The notes under the pieces are model-generated. The model did no database searches. It was given only the letters and a program-made list of their open reading frames with translations, and was not told the origin of the DNA. Shown piece by piece: positions 8,513 to 60,535 of a stretch of DNA of 64,000 nucleotides (within the stretch, counting starts at the first letter, position 1; the number at the start of each line of letters is the position of its first letter). This stretch comes from Bradyrhizobium amphicarpaeae (GTDB lineage Bacteria > Pseudomonadota > Alphaproteobacteria > Rhizobiales > Xanthobacteraceae). The stretch spans positions 2,076,001 to 2,140,000 of the forward strand of contig NZ_CP029426.2 in assembly GCF_002266435.3 (NCBI RefSeq), given 5' to 3'. The translations under genes were made by a program, and so were the position numbers.

Positions 8513-8968
8513 CTAGGCCGCCTTCTTCTGCTCGATCTGCGGTGACGTAGCCCCCGCGATCTGGATCCGACGCGGCTTCATGGCCTCCGGAATCTCGCGC
8601 AGGAGATCGATGACCAGGAGACCGTCCTGGAAAGCGGCCTGCTTGACCTGGACGTAGTCGGCGAGATTGAACACGCGGCGGAACGGACGCGCGGCGATCC
8701 CCTGATAGAGATATTCGCGGGTGGCGCTGTCGGGCTTCCGGCCCTCGATGGTGAGTGCGTTCTGTTCGGCAGTCACGCTGATGTCGTTGACGCCGAAGCC
8801 CGCCACGGCCAGCGTGATCCGGTATTGGTCTTCGCCGGAGCGCTCGATGTTGTAGGGCGGATAATTGTCTTCGCCAGCCTGGCGCAGCGTGCTGTCGACG
8901 AGGTCGGCCAGATGGTCGAAGCCGATGGTGGAGCGCCACAGCGGCGCGAAGTCAAAGGTGGTCCTCAT
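8513..8968 (-). CDS. Hsp20 family small heat-shock protein (IbpA-like)
   Basis: A 151-residue alpha-crystallin-type chaperone that would bind unfolded proteins in the cytoplasm. The alpha-crystallin domain spans about residues 33-128: it begins at YPPYNIE, contains ITLAVAGFGVNDI and ALTIEGRK, and ends before the C-terminal IxI-like motif (RRIQIAG). The N-terminus MRTTFDFAPLWRSTIGFD is typical of the rhizobial class A proteins. The start at 8968 is chosen over an upstream ATG at 8989 because GGAGGA lies seven to eight bases upstream of it and that site is embedded in a ROSE hairpin. Translation is therefore expected to be switched on by heat. Confidence 0.93.
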   Translation of the reverse strand: MRTTFDFAPLWRSTIGFDHLADLVDSTLRQAGEDNYPPYNIERSGEDQYRITLAVAGFGVNDISVTAEQNALTIEGRKPDSATREYLYQGIAARPFRRVFNLADYVQVKQAAFQDGLLVIDLLREIPEAMKPRRIQIAGATSPQIEQKKAA

Positions 8969-9060
8969 ACCAAGTCCTCCAAAGAGCAAGATGGATACGA
9001 AGGAGCGCCGTTAGGGAATCGGAAACGGATCCGAAGACCCCGGCCCGGCGCCCGCGCCGG
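8969..9060 (-). promoter_or_regulatory. ROSE-type RNA thermometer in the hsp20 leader
   Basis: On the minus strand the last bases before the start codon read CUUGCUCUUUGGAGGACUUGG. The UUGCU element can pair with the Shine-Dalgarno GGAGGA: U-A, U-G, a bulged G, C-G, U-A and C-G, around a short UUUG loop. This is the conserved 3' hairpin of ROSE elements, which block translation at low temperature in rhizobial small heat-shock genes. Further GC-rich complementary segments lie upstream, towards 9060. The proximal hairpin is clear; the outer boundary is approximate. Confidence 0.8.
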
Positions 9061-9102
9061 ACCCGATCGGGCATCCGGCACACCGCTCTCGCGGCGAAAA
9101 AC

Positions 9103-10887: not shown

Positions 10888-12525
10888 ATGACGAGCTACA
10901 TCTATCCGAAGTTCGGCTATCGGCGTTCCCAGGAGCAGTCCGAGGGGATCGTGAAGCGGCATCCGATCGTGGTGATCGGCGCGGGTCCCATCGGCCTGAC
11001 CGCGGCGCTCGACTGCGCGGCGCGCGGCCAGCCGGTCGTGGTGCTCGACGACAACGACACCGTCTCGATCGGCTCGCGCGCGGTCTGTTACGCCAAGCGT
11101 CCGCTCGAAATCTGGGACCGCCTCGGTTGCGCGGCGCCCATGGTCGAGCGCGGCGTCAGCTGGAACGTCGGCAAGGTCTTCTTCCAGGACCAGATGTCCT
11201 ACCAGTTCGATCTGTTGCCCGAGGCCGGCCACCAATGGCCGGCCATGATCAATCTGCAGCAATATCATCTGGAAGAAATGCTGGTCGCCAAATGCAGGGC
11301 CAACCCGCTGATCGATCTGCGCTGGAAGCATCGCCTGATCAGCCTCAAGCAGGATGCCGACCATGCGGTGCTGGCGGTGGAGACGCCCGACGGCATCTTC
11401 ACCATGGAAGCGCAATGGGTGATTGCCTGCGACGGGGCCAATTCCGACGTGCGCAAGATGGTCGGCGCCGAGTTCACGGGACAGTTCTTCCAGGACCGAT
11501 TCCTGATCGCCGACGTCGCCATGAAGGCGGATTTCCCGACCGAGCGCTGGTTCTGGTTCGACCCGCCGTTCCACCGCGGCCAGTCCGTGCTGCTGCACCG
11601 GCAGGCCGACAATCTGTGGCGCATCGACTTCCAGCTCGGCTGGGAAGCCGACCCCGATGAGGAAAAAAGGCCGGAGCGGGTGATTCCGCGCATCCGCGCC
11701 ATGCTCGGCGAGGACACCGAGTTCGTGCTCGAATGGGTCTCGATCTATCAGTTCGCCTGCCGGCGCATCGACAATTTCCGCCAGGGCCGGGTGCTGTTCG
11801 CGGGCGATGCCGCGCACCAGGTCTCGCCGTTCGGCGCGCGCGGCGCCAATACCGGCGTCCAGGACATCGACAATCTCGCCTGGAAACTCGCGATGGTGTT
11901 GCGCGGCGAAGCGTCGGAAGCGCTGCTCGACAGCTATCACGAGGAGCGCGCCTATGCCGCCGACGACAACATCCTGAACTCGACGCGCGCCACCGACTTC
12001 ATCACGCCGAAGACGAAAGCGAGCCGTTATTTCCGTGACGCCGCGCTGGAGCTCGCCCGGCATCACGGCTTTGCGCGACCTCTGGTCAACAGCGGCCGTC
12101 TCTCGACGCCGACGCCCTATGTGACGTCGGCGCTCAACACCCCCGATGACGACGCGATGACGGGCGGCGTGCGGCCTGGCACCAATGCCGCCGATGCGCC
12201 GATCACGGCGGATGGCAAGCCCGGCTGGTTCCTCCATTGCCTCGGCGACGCATTCACGGTCATGGTTTTCGGCAAGGAGACCGACAAGACCGAGATCGCG
12301 GTGGGTCCGCTCAAAGCGAAGCTCATCGTCGTCGGCCGCGACATCGCCGACCCCTCCGGCCTGCTTGCCGAGCGTTACGGCGCTTCGCCCGGGACCACCT
12401 ACCTCTTCCGCCCCGATCAATATGTCGCCGCACGCTGGACCGGATTCGACGAGGCGGGGATCGCGGATGCGATGTTGCGGGCCTCCGGGCACGACATCGC
12501 CGGACAAAAGGAGCTGGCGGCATGA
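10888..12525 (+). CDS. FAD-dependent aromatic monooxygenase (MhpA/PheA class)
   Basis: A 545-residue group A flavoprotein hydroxylase. The FAD-binding GAGPIGLTAALD motif is at about residues 31-42, and the second FAD motif (LFAGDAAHQVSPFGARGANT) is at about 307-326. The C-terminal 150 residues fit the thioredoxin-like domain of this family. It should hydroxylate an aromatic ring with NAD(P)H and O2 in the cytoplasm. The neighbours are a VOC enzyme upstream and a DUF2783 protein whose start overlaps this stop (ATGA). The exact substrate cannot be read from the sequence; 3-hydroxyphenylpropionate-like or resorcinol-type compounds are possibilities. Confidence 0.88.
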   Translation: MTSYIYPKFGYRRSQEQSEGIVKRHPIVVIGAGPIGLTAALDCAARGQPVVVLDDNDTVSIGSRAVCYAKRPLEIWDRLGCAAPMVERGVSWNVGKVFFQDQMSYQFDLLPEAGHQWPAMINLQQYHLEEMLVAKCRANPLIDLRWKHRLISLKQDADHAVLAVETPDGIFTMEAQWVIACDGANSDVRKMVGAEFTGQFFQDRFLIADVAMKADFPTERWFWFDPPFHRGQSVLLHRQADNLWRIDFQLGWEADPDEEKRPERVIPRIRAMLGEDTEFVLEWVSIYQFACRRIDNFRQGRVLFAGDAAHQVSPFGARGANTGVQDIDNLAWKLAMVLRGEASEALLDSYHEERAYAADDNILNSTRATDFITPKTKASRYFRDAALELARHHGFARPLVNSGRLSTPTPYVTSALNTPDDDAMTGGVRPGTNAADAPITADGKPGWFLHCLGDAFTVMVFGKETDKTEIAVGPLKAKLIVVGRDIADPSGLLAERYGASPGTTYLFRPDQYVAARWTGFDEAGIADAMLRASGHDIAGQKELAA

Positions 12526-12716
12526 CGCTCAATTTGTCCCCCAACATCGCCGATCCCGACGATTTCTATGCCGAGCTGATCAACAGCCAGCGTGACCTCG
12601 ACGAGGAGCAGGCGCTGCGCATGAACGCGCGGCTGATCCTGCTGCTCGCCAATCACATCGGCGACCGCAAGGTGCTCACGGAAGCGATCGGCTGCGCCCG
12701 TACCGGCGGCGGCTAG
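12522..12716 (+). CDS. DUF2783 domain protein
   Basis: A 64-residue protein matching the DUF2783 pattern: DPDDFYAELINSQRDLDEEQ followed by a helix NARLILLLANHIGD. The family is found next to aromatic flavin monooxygenases, and its role is unknown. It overlaps the upstream stop by four bases (ATGA), so it is translated with the monooxygenase and may be a small helper subunit. Confidence 0.85.
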   Translation: MTLNLSPNIADPDDFYAELINSQRDLDEEQALRMNARLILLLANHIGDRKVLTEAIGCARTGGG

Positions 12717-12775
12717 GTCGCGGCCGAGCGCGCCGGGTTGTTTCCCCCGGGCCGGCGTGCCGCGCGACGGCCATG

Positions 12776-12789
12776 TTGATACAGCTCAA
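12776..12789 (+). promoter_or_regulatory. FixK/FNR-type box upstream of the P1B-5 ATPase
   Basis: The sequence TTGATACAGCTCAA matches the anaerobox consensus TTGAT-N4-ATCAA in nine of ten conserved positions. A FixK-activated promoter centred here (about 12782) would start near 12824, about 35 bases before the ATG at 12859. This supports oxygen-responsive expression and the downstream start codon. Confidence 0.6.
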
Positions 12790-12858
12790 CTGGCAAAGCA
12801 GGTTTCGGCGCAGGATCATTCGCATCCAGCCGTGGAAACCGAACTATGTTTGCAAGCC

Positions 12859-15144
12859 ATGTCGTTTGATCGGGTCCTGCGATGGGCTCTGGTTGCGATC
12901 GCAATCGCAGGATTGACTGCGGGTGCTCTCGCGCGAGCCGCGGGCCGGCCTGATCTCGCCGACCTCGCGTGGGCGCTCGGCACGGCGCCCGTGATTGCGG
13001 GATTGGCGGTCTCGATCGTCAGGGATCTCTTGAGCGGCCGCGTCGGCGTGGACGCGATCGCGCTGCTGTCGATGAGTGCGGCCCTGGCGCTCGGACAGCC
13101 GCTCGCCGGCGCCGTGGTCGCGCTGATGTACTCCGGCGGCAACGTGCTGGAGGAGATCGCGGTCGCACGGGCGGAGCATGATCTGCGCTCGCTGGTTGAT
13201 CGGGCGCCGCGGCAAGTGCATCGCAAATCCGGCGAGCGGATCGAGGATGCTCCGGTCGAGGACGTCGCGGTCGGTGAAGAGCTTTTGGTCAAGGCCGGCG
13301 AAATCGTACCGGTCGACGGTGTCGTTGCGTCGGCCTCTGCCACCATCGACGAATCTACGGTGACCGGCGAACCGATTCCGGTGGAGAAGACGCGCGGAAC
13401 CGCCGTTCTTTCCGGTTCTCTGAACGCGGGCGAGACCTTCCAATTGACCGTGACGGCGGTGGCCAGCGAGAGTACTTACGCCGGCATCGTGCGCATGGTG
13501 ACTGCGGCGCAGACTGCGAAAGCCCCCTTCGTGCGGATGGCCGACCGCTATGCGCTGATATTTCTGCCGCTGACACTCGTCATCGCCTTCGTGGCATGGC
13601 GCATCTCCGGCGACTTGACCCGCAGCCTTGCCGTGCTGGTGGCGGCGACGCCTTGCCCCCTGATTCTGGCCGCACCCGTCGCCTTCATCGCCGGGGTGGC
13701 GCAGGCGGCCCGCCGCGGCATCCTGGCCAAGGGCGGGAGCGCGCTGGAGTCGCTGGCCCGTGCGCACACCGTGCTGTTCGACAAGACCGGGACCCTGACG
13801 GTGGGCGGAGCACGGTTGCTGTCCGTCGAAGTCGCGCCGGGCGAGGATCCGGATGAGGTCCTCAGGCTCGGAGCGTCGCTCGAGCAAGCGTCGCATCACG
13901 TGCTTGCGAAGGCCGTCGTTGCCGCGGCCCTCGATCGCGGGCTCAAGCTGGAGCCCCCCGAACAAGTCAAGGAGATCATGGGGTCCGGCCTCGGCGGCCA
14001 GATCGGCGGACGCCACGTCGTGGCGGGCTCGCGAGAGATGCTTCTCTCGCATGCCGAGCTGTCGCCATGGGAGTTGCGGGCGATAAGACGTGCCTCGTGG
14101 CGCTCGGCGCTGATCGTCTTCGTCGCGGTGGACGGCCGCCTGATCGGTGCACTGCTGCTGGCCGACGAGTTGCGGGCCGACACGCCACGCGCGATCCGGC
14201 TGCTGCGCGACGCCGGCATCGCGCGGATGGTGATGGTCACCGGTGATCGCGCCGCAGCGGCGCAGGCCATCGGAGCGGCGCTCGATCTCGATGCCGTGCT
14301 GGCTGACCGCGTCCCTGCGGACAAGGTCGAAGCGGTGCGGAGCGAGCAGCGGCTGCATCCGACCATCATGGTCGGCGACGGCATCAATGACGCCCCGGCG
14401 CTGGCCATGGCTGATACCGGAATCGCGCTCGGCGCGCGTGGTGCAAGCGCCTCCTCCGAGGCGGCAGATGTGGTGATTCTCACGGACCGGCTGGATCGGG
14501 TCGGCGAAGCGATCATCATCGCGCAGCGGACGCGGCGCATTGCCCTGCAGAGCATCTTCGCCGGGATGGGATTGTCGTTGGTCGCCATGGTCGCGGCGGC
14601 CTTTGGCTGGCTCGATCCCGTGCCCGCCGCGATTGTCCAGGAGGTGATCGATGTCGCCGTCATCCTGAACGCGCTGCGGGCGCTCAAGCCGCCCCTCGTC
14701 TGGAGTGGTCCGCGCCTCACCGCAGAGCAGGGACTTACGTTGCATCATGATCATCAGGCCTTGCTCAGGGATCTCGACCGCTTGCGCCAGATCGTCGATG
14801 CGCTCGACGACGCGGTGCCCGAATCCGTCGCTGCCTTGATCGGCGAGGCCGACCGGCTGGTCCAGAGCAGCGTCGTGATGCACGAACGCGAGGATGAAGA
14901 CAGCGTCTATCCGAAGCTCACGGAGGTGCTGCGCGACCGCCACGGGCTCTCCGCCATGAGCCGCGCGCATCGCGAGATCCTGCATCTCGCGCGGTTGCTC
15001 GCCCGGATCGCGGAGGACCTGCCGTCCGAGAAGATCGATCGCTACCTCGTTCGCGACGCCCAGCGGGTGATCGAGGCGATCGAAACGCTGGTGCGCATGC
15101 ACACGGCCCAGGAGGAAGATATCTACGAGGCCGTCGCCGCATAG
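12859..15144 (+). CDS. P1B-5 type metal ATPase with C-terminal hemerythrin domain
   Basis: About 761 residues from the ATG at 12859. It is a heavy-metal P-type ATPase without an N-terminal metal-binding (HMA) domain. Visible motifs: TGEP at about 169-172, the membrane metal-site motif TPCP at about 264-267, the phosphorylation site DKTGT at about 308-312, SHH in place of the usual SxHP at about 345-347, and GDGINDAP at about 506-513. The last 140 residues form a hemerythrin-like bundle with His at about 629, 630, 632, 675, 704, 709 and 748. TPCP plus a hemerythrin tail defines the P1B-5 group, whose Sinorhizobium member Nia exports Ni and Fe in nodules. A GTG at 12757 would extend the frame, but a FixK-like box lies inside that extension. 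The changed HP motif is odd and may alter nucleotide binding. Confidence 0.85.
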   Translation: MSFDRVLRWALVAIAIAGLTAGALARAAGRPDLADLAWALGTAPVIAGLAVSIVRDLLSGRVGVDAIALLSMSAALALGQPLAGAVVALMYSGGNVLEEIAVARAEHDLRSLVDRAPRQVHRKSGERIEDAPVEDVAVGEELLVKAGEIVPVDGVVASASATIDESTVTGEPIPVEKTRGTAVLSGSLNAGETFQLTVTAVASESTYAGIVRMVTAAQTAKAPFVRMADRYALIFLPLTLVIAFVAWRISGDLTRSLAVLVAATPCPLILAAPVAFIAGVAQAARRGILAKGGSALESLARAHTVLFDKTGTLTVGGARLLSVEVAPGEDPDEVLRLGASLEQASHHVLAKAVVAAALDRGLKLEPPEQVKEIMGSGLGGQIGGRHVVAGSREMLLSHAELSPWELRAIRRASWRSALIVFVAVDGRLIGALLLADELRADTPRAIRLLRDAGIARMVMVTGDRAAAAQAIGAALDLDAVLADRVPADKVEAVRSEQRLHPTIMVGDGINDAPALAMADTGIALGARGASASSEAADVVILTDRLDRVGEAIIIAQRTRRIALQSIFAGMGLSLVAMVAAAFGWLDPVPAAIVQEVIDVAVILNALRALKPPLVWSGPRLTAEQGLTLHHDHQALLRDLDRLRQIVDALDDAVPESVAALIGEADRLVQSSVVMHEREDEDSVYPKLTEVLRDRHGLSAMSRAHREILHLARLLARIAEDLPSEKIDRYLVRDAQRVIEAIETLVRMHTAQEEDIYEAVAA

Positions 15145-39737: not shown

Positions 39738-39747
39738 CGGAGCCGCC

Positions 39748-39780
39748 CAAAAAGAAGAGCCGCTTGTTTTGACAAGCGGC
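39748..39780 (-). terminator. Terminator hairpin
   Basis: GCCGCTTGT (39759-39767), loop TTTG, ACAAGCGGC (39772-39780) form a perfect 9-bp stem. On the minus strand the stem is followed by CTCTTCTTTTT (39758-39748), giving a good intrinsic terminator for transcripts coming from the minus-strand nuclease gene. It may also stop cyo transcription in the other direction, though there it lacks a T-run. Confidence 0.7.
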
Positions 39781-39956
39781 CCAAGTCTAGGGAGGAAACG
39801 CCCAAGCAAGACAATCGGGCCGGAGCCGGATTGCTGCCAAGGAAACGCCCGCGCAAGCGCTTGCGTACACATACAAATGCAGCAACTCCCGATGAAGTTC
39901 AATTCCGGATCAATACGGTCCCGGACCACCACTCCTGGCTGCGTGAGCGACTTTGC

Positions 39957-50750: not shown

Positions 50751-50854
50751 GTGGGCGCGGGCTAGCGCTGACACCGAGGCGCTGACCAATTGCGCAGTGG
50801 AATTCAACTTCAGAGGGCGTTAGGATCGACCGGTACCTGTTACGGGAGTTGGCC

Positions 50855-53035
50855 ATGACGGAAGCCATGAAACCTTCTGCGGACACAGGCAGGCCGCCGA
50901 CGGTCAAAGACATCGTGACGTTCCTCTTGGCGTTCTTTGGTCAGGAGTTGAAGCCCGGGGCCGCCGTCCAGCCCACGACGGATATCAGGACAAAGCTAGG
51001 CTTGTCCGACGCCGATTGGACGGCGTTTGCAGACAGGATCAATGCGCATCCGCCGATCCAGGCGGCCCGCTTGAGCATTTCCCGCGGGCAAATGATCAAT
51101 GCACGTTCCGTCGTCGACATCGCCAATATCATGCTTGCCGGTTTCGGCGAGAAGCCAAGGACCCTTGCAGTTCCGGCCCAGCCCGGTCGCCGGAAGGCTG
51201 CCAGCAAAGGACGGCCCGCTCTGGAACGGAACATGGAATTCCGGGGGCCGGGCGGCGATATGTCTTTCCTTGAAGAGTTGTTGAGGGCGGATAGCGCGAA
51301 AACCATTGTCGAGAACGCGCCCATCGAGGTGGAGAAGGCGCCTCCAGCCCCTCGCGATCTGCCGCAGGCCAAGGCCGGCGACGAGAAGGCGGCGCCGGGG
51401 CACGAGGAAACGGGTGCAGGCGATTCTGCGTCGTTCTTTTTCGCGCTGGAGAGCAAGCCCACGTCGGGTCGCAAGACCGTGCAAGGCAACGAGGTCTTGT
51501 GGGGTGAAGAATTCGATCTCCTCTTTCTCTACGGTCGCTTGACCGACAATGCGTTCGCCGTTGTCGACGGCGCCCGCGGATTGGAGGCAGTGAAGCAGGG
51601 GAAGGTCGCACTCGGCGTCGAAGTCATCCCGAAAGGTCTGACGCTCGCAAAGGGAGGCGCATTCAGGCTGGTCGAGATCAAGGACGGCAAGCTCGTCGGA
51701 GAGCCGCCTCGTTTCGAGTTGACGGCGCCGAAGCGGAGCGACGCGGAGCCTGGTCCGGCCGGCGCCTACGTTACGTTCACGGTCAATGGGGCTGCGATCT
51801 ATACTTTCTTTCTCGAGCTTCGCTTGACTGACAAGCTATCGGACAGCCCGGCTCCTCCTCGAACGATAAATCTCGATCTTGAGCACGTGACAGCGAGCGC
51901 CAATGTCGAGCCGCGATATGCTCGGTTCACTATCCGTAAGAGAGGCGGACCTTGGCAGGTCTACGGATCAATACGGAACGGGGACGACGAACTCCTGCCC
52001 GACGATACGACGATCATCAACGAAAGCAGTCTCGATACCGTCTATAGGGAAAGCATTGTCCCGGTCCTGAGGAAGGTTGCCGACGAAACGGCATGGAAGT
52101 TCGTGGGCGACGATCTGAAATTGCCGGCGGAACACGATGCGGCGGCCCGAGCTTGCATGCAGAAGACCATGACCATTGGATATCGGCTCTACCGGCGGTT
52201 TTCGGAGGATCCGGTCTTCAAGAAGATGGTCGACATGATCGAAGCGCTTCCTGACGGATCGAAGATCACCATCACGACGGATCGCGAGGTTTTTCCTTGG
52301 GAAATGTTTTATCCCCTGCACTACGTCGATGACGACGTTCCGGCGAATTTTCAGCCCAGCAGGTTCTGGGGCAACCGCTTCCTGATCGAATCGCTTCTGT
52401 TGCCAACGTCGCATGATGAAAAGATCCCCGCGCGCCGGCAGCAAGTCGGGCCATTATATGTGAGCATGGGACTGAACCGCGGGATCGACGCCGAGGCACC
52501 GTGGGCGGGTCGAGAGCCTTTGCCGGTCGACGTTCAGCACACATTCTTCAACAAAGATCTGAAGGGCCGCGGACGCTATTGCGAACAGTACGACGACATC
52601 GTCAAGAATATCCGCGATGCCGATCCGGCGAGCGTGATCTACTTCTTCTGTCACGGCACGGCGAAGGAGCTCAAATTCGACAACACGGAGCGCCGGCTGG
52701 TCGCAGACCATCTGGACGGAGGGGAGAACTATCCGGGGTGGCCGCTGGTATTCATCAATGCCTGCGACGCCGGCGATCTCTCGCCTCTCTCGTTCTATTC
52801 ATTCCGCACGGAATTCCGCAAGCGCAAGGCGGCCGGGCTGATTGCGCCATGCTTTCCGGTGCCGACGATGTTCGCCGCGATGTTCGCCAAAAGATTCCTG
52901 GCTGCTTATTGCGAGCGGCAATCGGTCGGGGCGACACTGTTCAACATCCGTCGCGAACTGATTGCGAGGAACAACCCATTAGGGCTGTGGTATTCGCTAC
53001 AGTGCCCGCTGGATCTCAAGGGGCCGGAGGCATAG
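50855..53035 (+). CDS. CHAT domain (caspase-like) protein with N-terminal ACP-like segment
   Basis: A 726-residue protein. The C-terminal third is a CHAT/caspase-like peptidase: PWEMFYP (about 481-487), the catalytic His in VIYFFCHGTAKE (H600), the catalytic Cys in VFINACDAGD (C637), and the conserved FPVPTMFAAMFAKRFL helix after it. Residues about 16-97 have the spacing of an acyl-carrier-like helical bundle (LGLSDADW) but without the usual DSL serine. A Pro/Ala/Glu-rich linker (about 160-190) and an all-beta region (about 195-380) lie between. CHAT proteases cleave partner proteins in cell-death and defence systems. The start at 50855 has GGGAG upstream. The stop abuts the phosphoesterase start directly. 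GC falls to 48-53% in two lines I counted, clearly below the flanks. Confidence 0.85.
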   Translation: MTEAMKPSADTGRPPTVKDIVTFLLAFFGQELKPGAAVQPTTDIRTKLGLSDADWTAFADRINAHPPIQAARLSISRGQMINARSVVDIANIMLAGFGEKPRTLAVPAQPGRRKAASKGRPALERNMEFRGPGGDMSFLEELLRADSAKTIVENAPIEVEKAPPAPRDLPQAKAGDEKAAPGHEETGAGDSASFFFALESKPTSGRKTVQGNEVLWGEEFDLLFLYGRLTDNAFAVVDGARGLEAVKQGKVALGVEVIPKGLTLAKGGAFRLVEIKDGKLVGEPPRFELTAPKRSDAEPGPAGAYVTFTVNGAAIYTFFLELRLTDKLSDSPAPPRTINLDLEHVTASANVEPRYARFTIRKRGGPWQVYGSIRNGDDELLPDDTTIINESSLDTVYRESIVPVLRKVADETAWKFVGDDLKLPAEHDAAARACMQKTMTIGYRLYRRFSEDPVFKKMVDMIEALPDGSKITITTDREVFPWEMFYPLHYVDDDVPANFQPSRFWGNRFLIESLLLPTSHDEKIPARRQQVGPLYVSMGLNRGIDAEAPWAGREPLPVDVQHTFFNKDLKGRGRYCEQYDDIVKNIRDADPASVIYFFCHGTAKELKFDNTERRLVADHLDGGENYPGWPLVFINACDAGDLSPLSFYSFRTEFRKRKAAGLIAPCFPVPTMFAAMFAKRFLAAYCERQSVGATLFNIRRELIARNNPLGLWYSLQCPLDLKGPEA

Positions 53036-54361
53036 ATGTCCCAGAAGCGCGTGACTCTCATCGTCAGCGACCTGCACATGGGAGACGGCGGGGCGGGCGA
53101 CGATTTCGTCGACGACCGGCATCAATTCGCGACGTTCCTTCGCGCCCAGGCGGCCAGGCCGGAAGGGCGTGCCGGCGAGGTCGAACTGATCATCAACGGC
53201 GATTTCCTCGAAATGGTGCAGGTGCTGCCTGACGCCTACAAGGGGAACCCCTCGGACGCCTGGTGCTCGGAAACGGAATCGGTCGAGAAGCTCGAATGCA
53301 TTCTGAAGGGGCATCCTCTTGTCTTCGACGCGCTCGCGGAACTCCAAGCGGCCGGCAATCAGGTCACGCTGTTTCCGGGCAACCACGACGTCGACCTCTA
53401 TTGGCCGGAGGTCAGGGCAAGGCTTCAGACGAAGGTCCCCGGCATTCGGATCGAGAACGAAATCGTCTACACGCGGTACGATGACAGACTCCGCATCAGC
53501 CATGGTCACCTGCTCAAGAGCATCGATCCGGCCAACGGGTTCGAGCATCCCGATCATCCGATCGTCAACACGAACACCCCGCCACGTCTCGAGATCTGTC
53601 CTGGGACGCTCTTCATGGTCAAGTTCGTGAATCTGATGGAGGCGAAGTATCCCTTCGCGGACAATCTCAGCCCGGTGACGGCCCTGATCAGAATTCTCGC
53701 GCGAGAAGACCGCTGGGGACTGACCTCGCTCGCGTGGATGTTCACACGGTTTGCCGCGCGATATCCCTCGGCCCTGCTCGGCGAAGGGACGTCGCAGGGG
53801 CAGGTTGGAGCGCAGTTGCTGAACGCAATTCAGGGCGACCGATACCTGCGGCAGGACATCGCCGCTTTCTGCAAGGAACTGCTCGGCCGCGAGGTGACCG
53901 AAGCCGACATTCGGCGACAATTGTCGACGGAGGACGCCGTTGCGGACCTTATTGGAGAGTTCTTTCGTGCCGATCCCACCTTGGGCAAATGGGTGTCGAT
54001 CTTCGACGGCGCGAAGCCCGGAACGTTGGGCGAGGCGGGTGGCGGGACATTGTCGATCGTGGAATCCGGCAACACGGATGCGCGCGGGGCCTGCACGGAG
54101 ATCGCCCGGAATTATTGCAATGCCGGAGCCCAGGTCTTCGTCCTCGGTCATACGCATCTGCCTCAACAGATGTCGTTTGGCGCGAGCCGGTACTACAACC
54201 CCGGCTCATGGACCCGTTACGTCGAGGATACGTCGAAGCTGACGCTGAAGATGCTCGAGGATGAAACTGCGTTTCCGTATGAGCTGAATTGCGTCCGGGT
54301 TGAGGACGGCGGCGCTCCGCTTCTGAAGAGCGAGATGATCACGGTCGAGAAGCGTCGCTGA
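53036..54361 (+). CDS. Calcineurin-like metallophosphoesterase paired with the CHAT protein
   Basis: A 441-residue metal-dependent phosphoesterase. The motifs are SDLHMGD (D12, H14), INGDFLEM (G55-D56), FPGNHDVDLYW (N116-H117-D118), RISHGHLL (H about 158) and VLGHTHLPQ (H-T-H about 372-374), the full set for a di-metal site. Between about 165 and 330 a helical insertion (for example FVNLMEAKYPFADNLSPVTA) separates the last His pair from the rest, which is longer than in typical family members. The substrate could be a phosphoester, a nucleotide second messenger or DNA/RNA. It starts on the base after the CHAT stop codon with GGAGG in the CHAT end, so the two are made together. Confidence 0.88.
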   Translation: MSQKRVTLIVSDLHMGDGGAGDDFVDDRHQFATFLRAQAARPEGRAGEVELIINGDFLEMVQVLPDAYKGNPSDAWCSETESVEKLECILKGHPLVFDALAELQAAGNQVTLFPGNHDVDLYWPEVRARLQTKVPGIRIENEIVYTRYDDRLRISHGHLLKSIDPANGFEHPDHPIVNTNTPPRLEICPGTLFMVKFVNLMEAKYPFADNLSPVTALIRILAREDRWGLTSLAWMFTRFAARYPSALLGEGTSQGQVGAQLLNAIQGDRYLRQDIAAFCKELLGREVTEADIRRQLSTEDAVADLIGEFFRADPTLGKWVSIFDGAKPGTLGEAGGGTLSIVESGNTDARGACTEIARNYCNAGAQVFVLGHTHLPQQMSFGASRYYNPGSWTRYVEDTSKLTLKMLEDETAFPYELNCVRVEDGGAPLLKSEMITVEKRR

Positions 54362-54626
54362 GCGCGTGGTGAGGCACATGCGATCTGCTGGCCGCCGGGC
54401 CGGCTCGCTGATGCAGGCCGAACGCGAGCGGCGGAATTCCGCACAAGCTTTGAGCAATTGCACCTCGTCAAGCCGTCGCACAGCCAATGAGCAGGCGCGG
54501 GCGTGCGGGATAACCTTTTGAGCGGGTTGCGAATTCTTCTGCGACCGCGAAGCTGCTGCAATTGTACACAATGGCACGGCGCTTGCAGAACTCTTGCAAA
54601 GAGAGTTCTCGCGAGGGGCTAGCGTC
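54362..54626. other. Intergenic region upstream of the hydrolase/permease genes
   Basis: No gene in these 265 bp. They contain the sigma-54 promoter at 54572-54587 and a possible NtrC half-site TGCACC at 54459-54464, about 130 bases upstream of the predicted start of transcription. The GC-rich segment GGCCGCCGGGCCGGC near 54389-54403 could be the terminator of the phosphoesterase gene, but no T-run follows. Confidence 0.45.
54572..54587 (+). promoter_or_regulatory. Sigma-54 (RpoN) promoter
   Basis: TGGCACGGCGCTTGCA matches the -24/-12 consensus TGGCACG-N4-TTGCA at every key base, with GG (54573-54574) and GC (54585-54586) 12 bases apart. Transcription should start near 54598, 29 bases before the ATG at 54627. 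This implies control by an enhancer-binding protein such as NtrC. Confidence 0.88.
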
Positions 54627-59260: not shown

Positions 59261-60535
59261 CTAGCCAAAGGTGTCCGCCGTGATGGTTTGAAACCAGCGT
59301 TCGGCCTCCGCCGCCTCGCGCGCCCGGAGCTCGCGCGGCGCATCGACCGGGCTCGTCGCGCCGCCCTCAACTTCGGCGAAGATGTCGCCCTTGGGCTGGT
59401 AATTGCCCGCGAGCGAGAAGCCGTAGTCGGGCGCGACGGTGTTGTAGCAGACGCCGGTCAGCTGCGGCGGCTCCGGCGTGCGGCCGGCGAGCAAAGCGAC
59501 GATCGCGGCAGCGCAGGCCTTGCCTTGCGCGCCGGCAGCGGAAGCCGATTTGGGAATGCCGCCCCCAAGGCAGGCATCGCCGATGACATGGATGTTCTTG
59601 ACGAGTTTCGACTCGAACGTGACAGGATCGATCGGACACCAACCGGTCGCATCCGCCGCACCCGCAATCTCGGCGATATGTCCGGCGCGCTGTGGCGGAA
59701 TGACGTTGGCGACGTCAGGGGTGTAGTTGCCGAACTCGGTGACGATCGTCATGGTCGCCGGATCGACCGAGGTGACGCGGCCGCCTTGCGACAGGCCGAT
59801 CCGCTCGATCATGTCGCCGTACAGCTCCTTCCATGCCTTCTCGAACAGCCGCTGCTGGGAGAAACTGTCCTTGGCGTCGAGCACCAGAACCTTTGACCGC
59901 GGCTTCTTCGCCTTCAGATAATGCGCGATCAGGCTGGCGCGCTCGTAAGGCGCGGGCGGGCAGCGCGAGGGATTGGCCGGGATTGCGATGGCGACTGTGC
60001 CGCCGTCGGCCATTGCCTCCAACTGCCTGCGCAGCAACAGCGTTTGCGCGCCCGCCTTCCAGGCGTGCGGCATTTTCTCCGATGCGGCATTGTCATAGCC
60101 GGGCAGCGCTTCGAAATGGAAGTCGATGCCGGGCGAGAGCACGAGACGGTCATAGGGCAGCGCGACGCCGTCATTCGTCACGACGCTGCGCCGCTCCGGG
60201 TCGATCGTGGTCACGGCCTGACCGATGACCGTGACGCCATCGGCGGCAATCCTGTCGTAGCCGAACTGCTGCGCCTCGATGTCGCGAAGGCCCGCAATCA
60301 CCGCGTTGCTGAAGGGGCAGGACGTGAAGACCGCGTTGGGCTCGATCAGGATCACTTGCATATTTTTCTGCGCGCGCTTCAGCGCGCGGGCGCAAGCCGC
60401 GCCGCCGAATCCGCCGCCGACCACGACGACACGTCCTGCAGATTGCGCACGCAGCATCGATGGCCGCGCCAGCGTTGCGGTTGCCGCGGCGATGCCGAGC
60501 ACGGCATCGCGCCGTGTCAGCGGGCGCCTTTTCAT
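59261..60535 (-). CDS. soxF: Flavocytochrome c sulfide dehydrogenase flavoprotein (SoxF/FccB)
   Basis: A 424-residue Tat-exported flavoprotein (TRRDAVLGIAAATATLARPS). The FAD loop is VVVVGGGFGGAACARALKRA (about residues 35-54). The flavin-linking Cys is in TSCPFSNAVIAG (about 73-84), as in FccB, and the second FAD region is NIHVIGDACLGGGIPKSASA. It would oxidise sulfide or a sulfur intermediate in the periplasm and pass electrons to a c-type cytochrome, possibly SoxX or a partner. The start is the ATG at 60535, with another ATG nine bases upstream (60544). It follows the molybdenum oxidoreductase by 53 bp. Confidence 0.88.
   Translation of the reverse strand: MKRRPLTRRDAVLGIAAATATLARPSMLRAQSAGRVVVVGGGFGGAACARALKRAQKNMQVILIEPNAVFTSCPFSNAVIAGLRDIEAQQFGYDRIAADGVTVIGQAVTTIDPERRSVVTNDGVALPYDRLVLSPGIDFHFEALPGYDNAASEKMPHAWKAGAQTLLLRRQLEAMADGGTVAIAIPANPSRCPPAPYERASLIAHYLKAKKPRSKVLVLDAKDSFSQQRLFEKAWKELYGDMIERIGLSQGGRVTSVDPATMTIVTEFGNYTPDVANVIPPQRAGHIAEIAGAADATGWCPIDPVTFESKLVKNIHVIGDACLGGGIPKSASAAGAQGKACAAAIVALLAGRTPEPPQLTGVCYNTVAPDYGFSLAGNYQPKGDIFAEVEGGATSPVDAPRELRAREAAEAERWFQTITADTFG

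Follow-up and report, generated by a model that had tools for sequence, protein, structure and literature searches.

We analysed a 64,000-nucleotide stretch of Bradyrhizobium amphicarpaeae (contig NZ_CP029426.2, positions 2,076,001 to 2,140,000; hereafter the window), in which two adjacent plus-strand genes encode a CHAT/separase-like protease of 726 amino acids (aa) (50855..53035) and an LpxH-like metallophosphoesterase (MPE) of 441 aa (53036..54361). Both assignments draw on open reading frame (ORF), domain, model and fold evidence. The MPE gene begins right behind the stop codon of the protease gene, with a gap of zero, and a GGAGG ribosome-binding site read in the sequence (53026..53030, plus strand) lies within the end of the CHAT gene. 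An initial annotation had described a CHAT protein with an intact His600/Cys637 pair directly followed by a full-motif MPE whose ribosome site sits inside the CHAT gene end; coordinates, motifs and site were all verified. Each of the two proteins has one match in its own genome (E≤0.001).

The CHAT protein starts with an all-helical N-terminal domain (residues 14-95; 50894..51139; this and all features of the pair below are on the plus strand), for which the model gives helices over residues 17-95 at a block pLDDT (predicted local distance difference test) mostly of 77-92, and which is a candidate EAD-like adaptor. It is followed by a predicted disordered linker (residues 97-189, pLDDT below 50 across; 51143..51421) and by a core that is constant among relatives and begins at residue 194. 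Model and alignment place a beta-sandwich part in this core (residues 193-389; 51431..52021), and conserved residues and a fold match delimit the CHAT catalytic region (residues 470-716; 52262..53002). The catalytic residues His600 (codon 52652-52654) and Cys637 (codon 52763-52765) are unchanged across 22 aligned CHAT sequences, and the modelled catalytic region matches separase and Csx29 in fold comparison. The Pfam CHAT score of the window protein is 19.4 for a cut-off of 24, and its Peptidase_C25 match is likewise under cut-off; two relatives pass the CHAT cut-off (L025, 27.7; P0131, 24.4), most others scanned being below it. By fold and catalytic residues, the window protein is a predicted clan CD cysteine protease. 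No TPR or SAVED part was seen in it by Pfam scan or in the model.

The helical head also occurs on DUF900 hydrolases encoded by genomes G068 and G137 of the genus (E=1.1e-4 for G137), so that a small helical domain is carried by different enzymes, which fits an adaptor candidate. No Pfam EAD matched residues 14-95 at E≤1. Identity with EAD8 was considered and rejected: an unmasked BLAST alignment to the EAD8 of a relative (L026, E=7.7e-4) became insignificant once masked. An EAD8 search of 60 genomes gave no match, but control genomes were equally silent, making it uninformative.

The MPE carries the motifs DxH...GD...GNHD...GHTH and matches Metallophos_2 over the Pfam cut-off, as expected of the calcineurin-like superfamily, with GNHD unchanged in 26 MPE sequences. 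In structure alignment, the catalytic core of its model takes the LpxH fold, which is the nearest one. A mostly helical insert, delimited by the model and its alignment to LpxH (residues 189-350; 53600..54085), separates the two metal-binding halves and contains a loop at residues 324-341 (54005..54058). The lowest-confidence stretch of the model, residues 324-338 (pLDDT below 50, block means of 44 and 34), falls in this loop; T338 is its last low-pLDDT residue, and L339 and I341 come right after. Among 118 MPEs of at least 400 aa, these three residues are conserved in 103, 116 and 95 sequences, respectively. Low pLDDT together with conservation makes the loop a candidate site of recognition or cleavage by CHAT.

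That the MPE stands in for LpxH in lipid A synthesis and adjoins a protease only by chance is very improbable, even with LpxH as the nearest fold. LpxH has an arginine in its GN[R]D motif and is about 240 aa long. The MPE carries GNHD instead and is nearly twice that size, its own genome encodes LpxI (LpxI_C, 151 bits, over cut-off), and linkage to CHAT is found in 15 of 15 loci (see below). An LpxH role was rejected on the LpxI gene, the GNHD motif and the lack of the LpxH arginine and size.

The pair was acquired horizontally as a block. A search with the downstream gene in 41 genomes matched 29, and loci were obtained for 20 (19 besides the own genome). In 11 of these 19 related loci, both flanks are 15-324 bp apart, leaving no room for two genes, and thus represent the empty site; the left match extends up to about 50746 and the right one starts from 54439-54570. 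In L072 and L074 the left match is limited to the end of the upstream gene, and the remaining eight loci show the right flank only and are uninformative. The inserted block, whose ends are approximate (50751..54438), consists of the two genes with only about 100 bp and 78 bp of flank, and no integrase or insertion sequence was found among its ORFs. A much lower GC had originally been taken as a sign of transfer; the drop is in fact modest (0.601 for the pair vs 0.646; 0.73/0.77 vs 0.82-0.89 at third codon positions). In L070, L072, L073, L075 and L079, a palindromic repeat of the CGTCATTCCGGGGC...CCCCGGAATGACG type fills the intergenic site that lacks the pair.

Scanning GTDB genome contigs with an MPE alignment yielded 31 loci, 17 of which (L010-L026) form a close family spanning Pseudomonadota, Myxococcota, Acidobacteriota and Nitrospirota. 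An ORF with the CHAT core lies directly upstream of the MPE in 15/15 close-family loci with upstream sequence (L014 and L023 end at a contig edge and are outside this count), the core being divided over two ORFs in L015 and L022. CHAT and MPE distances are strongly correlated (Mantel r=0.896, p=0.0002; 16 of the 17 available pairs, L018 left out; last 380 aa of CHAT). Counting the own genome throughout, strong matches occur in 2 of 146 genomes of the genus sample for CHAT as well as for the MPE (8/146 and 15/146, respectively, at E≤0.001), and a close MPE match in 1 of 398 genomes of the phylum sample (3/398 at E≤1e-10). The CHAT-MPE pair is therefore a conserved and rare two-gene unit with a constant, co-inherited core and MPE. 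A CHAT partner for all LpxH-like MPEs was considered and rejected, since no ORF of at least 90 aa matched the CHAT core at E≤1 in any of the 14 distant loci (L027-L040), several of which are incomplete. In the four Chloroflexi loci whose partner was scanned (L028, L030, L033, L036), a NurA-domain gene comes directly after the MPE, a further recurrent MPE partnership that is possibly linked to DNA repair, and in L029 and L032 the MPE has neighbours other than NurA.

In contrast to this constancy, the part preceding the core is highly variable, ranging from 59 to 457 aa before a core of 488-556 aa in cleanly split CHAT proteins. The heads include a patatin (L003 and L056 over cut-off, L010 below it), an OmpR-type winged helix (L011), a caspase (Peptidase_C14; L012, L013), an EAD8 (L026) and a phage-type endolysin with a peptidoglycan-binding domain (P0131 and P0136; phrog_181, E=3e-44 and 1e-38), while the upstream ORF of L015 carries TPR-S and trypsin (Trypsin_2), and membrane anchoring is apparent by eye in L016 and L021. 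In a Burkholderiaceae locus (L024, 2409-5360), a complete EF-Tu is fused N-terminally to the CHAT protein adjoining the MPE; this three-domain head scores 576 bits against the EF-Tu equivalog TIGR00485 (cut-off 522). Single linkage sorted 39 N-termini of at least 30 aa into 15 clusters, a figure that overcounts the kinds of head, since at least two clusters are patatin-type (P0138, also a patatin, is in a separate one); the joining of L026 to the window group is not robust, and the N-terminal split was in error for L013 (length 0) and partly for P0143. The patatin-headed P0134 and its relative P0135 align over 550 aa at 82% identity from near the beginning of the core, whereas the preceding parts show no similarity. 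Judged from these alignments, the N-terminal module is swapped on a constant CHAT core, and the EAD8, Peptidase_C14, Trypsin_2 plus TPR-S, patatin, endolysin and EF-Tu heads are modules typical of conflict systems.

The reading that we favour, with somewhat less than even confidence, is that the pair is a mobile two-gene conflict module, causing cell death or dormancy, in which a head-gated protease would cut the loop of the MPE. The constant parts would be the separase/CHAT-type core and the LpxH-like MPE, and the exchangeable part the N-terminal module, which may sense, anchor, recruit or be a payload, and which in the window would be a small helical adaptor. This module would detect a trigger or be recruited to it; clustering or a conformational change would then activate the CHAT core, which would cut the helical insert at its flexible loop, where the Thr-Leu is conserved, and so open the active site; the freed MPE would hydrolyse an essential phosphate ester, lipid-linked or nucleotide by its likeness to LpxH, and the infected or stressed cell would be stopped. 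We infer activation, cleavage, substrate, outcome and phage as the trigger, on top of predicted folds for CHAT and MPE and a predicted loop. The unlocking of the MPE by CHAT is proposed because of its likeness to a tested precedent, the gated metallo-beta-lactamase (MBL) nucleases unlocked by proteases in several defence systems (Tuck et al., 2025, PMC12799240). A bolder version, which we regard as unlikely, would make the pair an undescribed immune chassis in which some of the exchanged heads are baits (full-length EF-Tu, phage-type endolysin), so that damage to the bait or binding of it would fire CHAT and unlock a lipid- or nucleotide-destroying MPE via the Thr-Leu loop.

Thirteen other genomes of the genus have a weaker MPE match, and 10 of them were examined at 19-20 kb each (G001, G053 and G117 left out). 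Three loci (L057, L058, L059) are MPE-CHAT-nSTAND1 operons with the MPE first (type II), and in L059 the third gene (11782-14199) encodes an nSTAND1 NTPase fused to patatin. A second arrangement, consisting of the MPE, a trypsin-like protease with an EAD1 match and a third gene, was observed in L062 (9578-15176) and L064 (7221-12881), where the gene after the MPE matches trypsin and EAD1, one of the two being just under cut-off in each case; L065 resembles it by sequence. The third gene of L062 encodes pentapeptide repeats and also matches nSTAND1 and TPR-S, both below threshold, and the L064 protease has a weak Avs1b match far under cut-off. In L066 the MPE is followed by a CHAT-TPR-S gene, a neighbour in L060 has a marginal CHAT match (E=0.0055), and the long neighbours in L061 and L063, without Pfam match, were taken as exported CHAT-like proteins by eye only. 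Protease partners therefore recur in the wider MPE family, several of them with conflict-system domains. In the own genome, nSTAND1 gave weak P-loop-type matches and one frame over cut-off, none of them near the pair.

These arrangements bear on the alternative that the MPE is an off-switch or antidote that, in the manner of ring nucleases, removes an activating signal containing phosphate, with the CHAT protein acting as the effector by proteolysis or payload release. Payload-like heads (patatin, endolysin, caspase) do make the CHAT protein look like an effector, a constant MPE under variable heads fits a common regulator, and the CHAT-then-MPE order of all 15 close-family loci with upstream sequence also speaks for it. 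Nevertheless, the divergent type II has the reverse order, with the MPE ahead of CHAT, the scanned CHAT proteins have no Pfam match to a SAVED- or CARF-type family, and the conserved loop and large insert of the MPE would be left unexplained. We consider an off-switch improbable and retain loop cutting by CHAT as the preferred mechanism.

According to a regular expression written post hoc, with the sequences already seen, 18 of 19 type I and all three type II MPEs carry the loop pattern around the Thr-Leu. Outside these pairs it was found in one of 10 Chloroflexi MPEs (without CHAT), none of three trypsin-linked, none of two exported and one of four other MPEs, and in 6% of shuffled loops; the count excludes L040 and L060, and L065, whose GHTH is unreadable, was scored as a miss. 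L010 fails the expression despite having STLS, and several type I matches rest on Ser-Leu, Val-Leu, His-Leu or an adjoining stretch instead of Thr-Leu. A single type I clade has a support of 84/49 in the MPE tree, and type II clusters in the drawn tree with rows that lack the pattern, apart from type I; the tree is midpoint-rooted and its root arbitrary, and neither an ancestral nor a convergent loop is claimed. A pattern common to type I and type II pairs argues against two independent effectors, with an adaptor-recruited CHAT and an MPE hitting separate targets and neither acting on the other, as does the position of the swapped head on CHAT, none having been seen on the MPE. In favour of independent action, EAD-type recruitment of several effectors is a published logic (Kaur et al., 2020, PMC7159879), the helical domain of the window protein is shared with DUF900 hydrolases, and the loop pattern is missing from the MPE of L066 even though its partner is a CHAT protein. 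Even so, we judge independent action quite unlikely, and a CHAT acting on the MPE remains our preferred reading.

To characterize the surroundings of the pair, we surveyed 88 ORFs lying no more than 5 kb away; they come from 13 pair loci, out of 16 outside the window that have upstream sequence (L018, L020 and L022 omitted). They were chosen by a greedy longest-ORF rule, by which some frames are probably spurious, and derive from 90 listed ORFs, with three of L056 removed and one of L011 added. Among the families listed (25 of 112 for Pfam, 25 of 122 for PADLOC), the neighbours are mostly housekeeping, besides one AbiEi, one AbiEii, one reverse transcriptase and a series of PD-T4-6/kinase models; AbiE was assigned to L016 and the kinase to L026 by sequence reading. 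The families listed thus lean against a location in defence islands. The exceptions are an AbiEii/AbiEi pair with an AlpA-like gene (by eye) just downstream of the MPE in L016 (10779-13385), a divergent NACHT-FGE-sulfatase gene adjoining the caspase-CHAT and MPE pair of an Accumulibacter (L013, 3271-6042), a third gene behind the MPE in L011 (7338-10670) encoding a CHAT protein of 1110 aa with ankyrin and Sel1 repeats, and, in a Nitrospira (L025, 4156-6612), another CHAT gene of 818 aa (106 bits) that immediately precedes the pair. The candidate defence or cell-death module of the initial annotation is supported as a two-gene unit that was acquired as a block and has conflict features (swapped EAD8, TPR-S, caspase, trypsin and patatin modules, nSTAND1 partners in three divergent relatives, a conserved flexible loop in the MPE that could be cleaved), whereas the enrichment by known defence genes expected of it is not supported by the families listed; the contexts lean towards the core surroundings that had been named as speaking against it, apart from the AbiE, NACHT-FGE and further CHAT genes just described.

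Such neighbours would also suit a module of regulated proteolysis that serves stress responses, the envelope or development and has no phage role, for example membrane remodelling by a protease-controlled LpxH-like enzyme. Two examined Zoogloea loci occupy the same site, as a housekeeping gene would, several heads are envelope-related (patatin, endolysin, membrane anchors seen by eye), LpxH is the nearest fold of the MPE, and a CHAT-like fold is found too in the anti-sigma factor DdvA. In contrast, the pair is rare and patchy and its insertion isolated, different heads sit on cores that are 82% identical, and there are connections to EAD8, TPR-S, EF-Tu and nSTAND1. We consequently hold a purely physiological module to be unlikely, and keep to the conflict module as the favoured interpretation.

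The housekeeping neighbours, the shared Zoogloea site and the patternless MPE of L066 (one of the "other" MPEs) all weigh against a conflict module, and they are not alone in doing so. The one "other" MPE that carries the pattern (L039) is without CHAT, and the pattern itself was defined post hoc. A second low-confidence stretch of the MPE model (residues 247-257) is flanked by conserved L248 (106/118) and G258 (107/118), and the cut site, if any, could therefore lie there. The low pLDDT of the loop may reflect a shallow alignment (26 rows), or the loop may act as a lid over the substrate. PADLOC models gave no family for CHAT or MPE at E≤1. The MPE had no relative in phage, plasmid and IMG/VR collections at the sensitivity used, in a search that covered one of 8 viral-contig scans and did not include CHAT; carriage of the pair by phages or plasmids was rejected on this result. 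A second copy of the helical head is absent from the own genome (G000) at E≤0.01, although a strongly diverged copy could escape, and the window head thus lacks a defining feature of EADs, namely a further copy carried by a core component of that genome. Three points lower our confidence both in the favoured reading and in its bolder bait version: the missing pattern of L066, the second conserved low-confidence stretch, and a negative group whose members are not all linked to NurA.

Elsewhere in the window, Rfam matches to a ROSE thermosensor and to an mmgR/suhB small RNA lie at 8962-9078 and 39742-39819, respectively, both on the minus strand, and a tRNA-Thr call within a long open frame (59597-59676, minus strand) is possibly a false positive.

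No description of the CHAT-MPE pair was found among the papers listed in the literature searched, which mostly excluded subscription papers and preprints, and the earlier remark that no named system has this gene order is contradicted neither by this search nor by PADLOC. The closest parallel is provided by canu and related gated nuclease-protease pairs, where a protease gene likewise accompanies a hydrolase with insertions that presumably block its active site (Tuck et al., 2025, PMC12799240). The gating insertions of canu are predicted to be disordered and have conserved glycines, so that conserved residues within disordered insertions are shared with the MPE, as are varied sensing systems, and an Ig-like fold is present in CanA too (PMC12799240). 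Unlike the MBL-fold nuclease and trypsin or caspase found there, the pair combines a calcineurin-like, LpxH-type MPE with a separase/CHAT protease, and cleavage is putative; canu loci are located in defence islands, whereas the neighbours of the pair are mostly housekeeping among the families listed.

EACC1 systems combine one protease with many exchangeable domains, including EF-Tu (Kaur et al., 2020, PMC7159879). They resemble the pair in their two-gene core, in a caspase-superfamily protease fused to many alternative domains and in the autoproteolytic release proposed for them, but their partner is a one-transmembrane EACC1 protein and their variable domain is C-terminal, whereas the pair has an enzyme as partner and an N-terminal variable module; the caspase head of L012 scores 90.7 against the EACC1-associated caspase model (cut-off 140). 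EAD/TRADD-N systems share small helical adaptors, highly variable N-termini and exchangeable effectors that include calcineurin-like phosphoesterases and caspases (Kaur et al., 2021, PMC8195603). In contrast, no CHAT-MPE pair was found in the portions of that paper drawn upon, and the window head matches no Pfam EAD. Compared by structures only, the TPR-CHAT of Craspase (Csx29) and the SAVED-CHAT of type III CRISPR differ from the window protein, which is without a TPR or SAVED part and has an MPE as partner. LpxH shares the fold of the catalytic core, but the MPE differs in its much larger insert, its GNHD motif and its upstream CHAT gene, in a genome that already has LpxI.

From these comparisons, the pair appears to belong with proteolytically wired conflict modules that have exchangeable parts. 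If this is correct, the recently found immune effectors of bacteria that are activated by proteases would gain a phosphoesterase branch, in a compact two-gene design with an exchangeable head. Because a single chassis carries heads as different as EF-Tu, endolysin, patatin and caspase, it would allow a direct test of whether bacterial immune proteases use integrated baits, and of a common cut site in one conserved loop in all four phyla.

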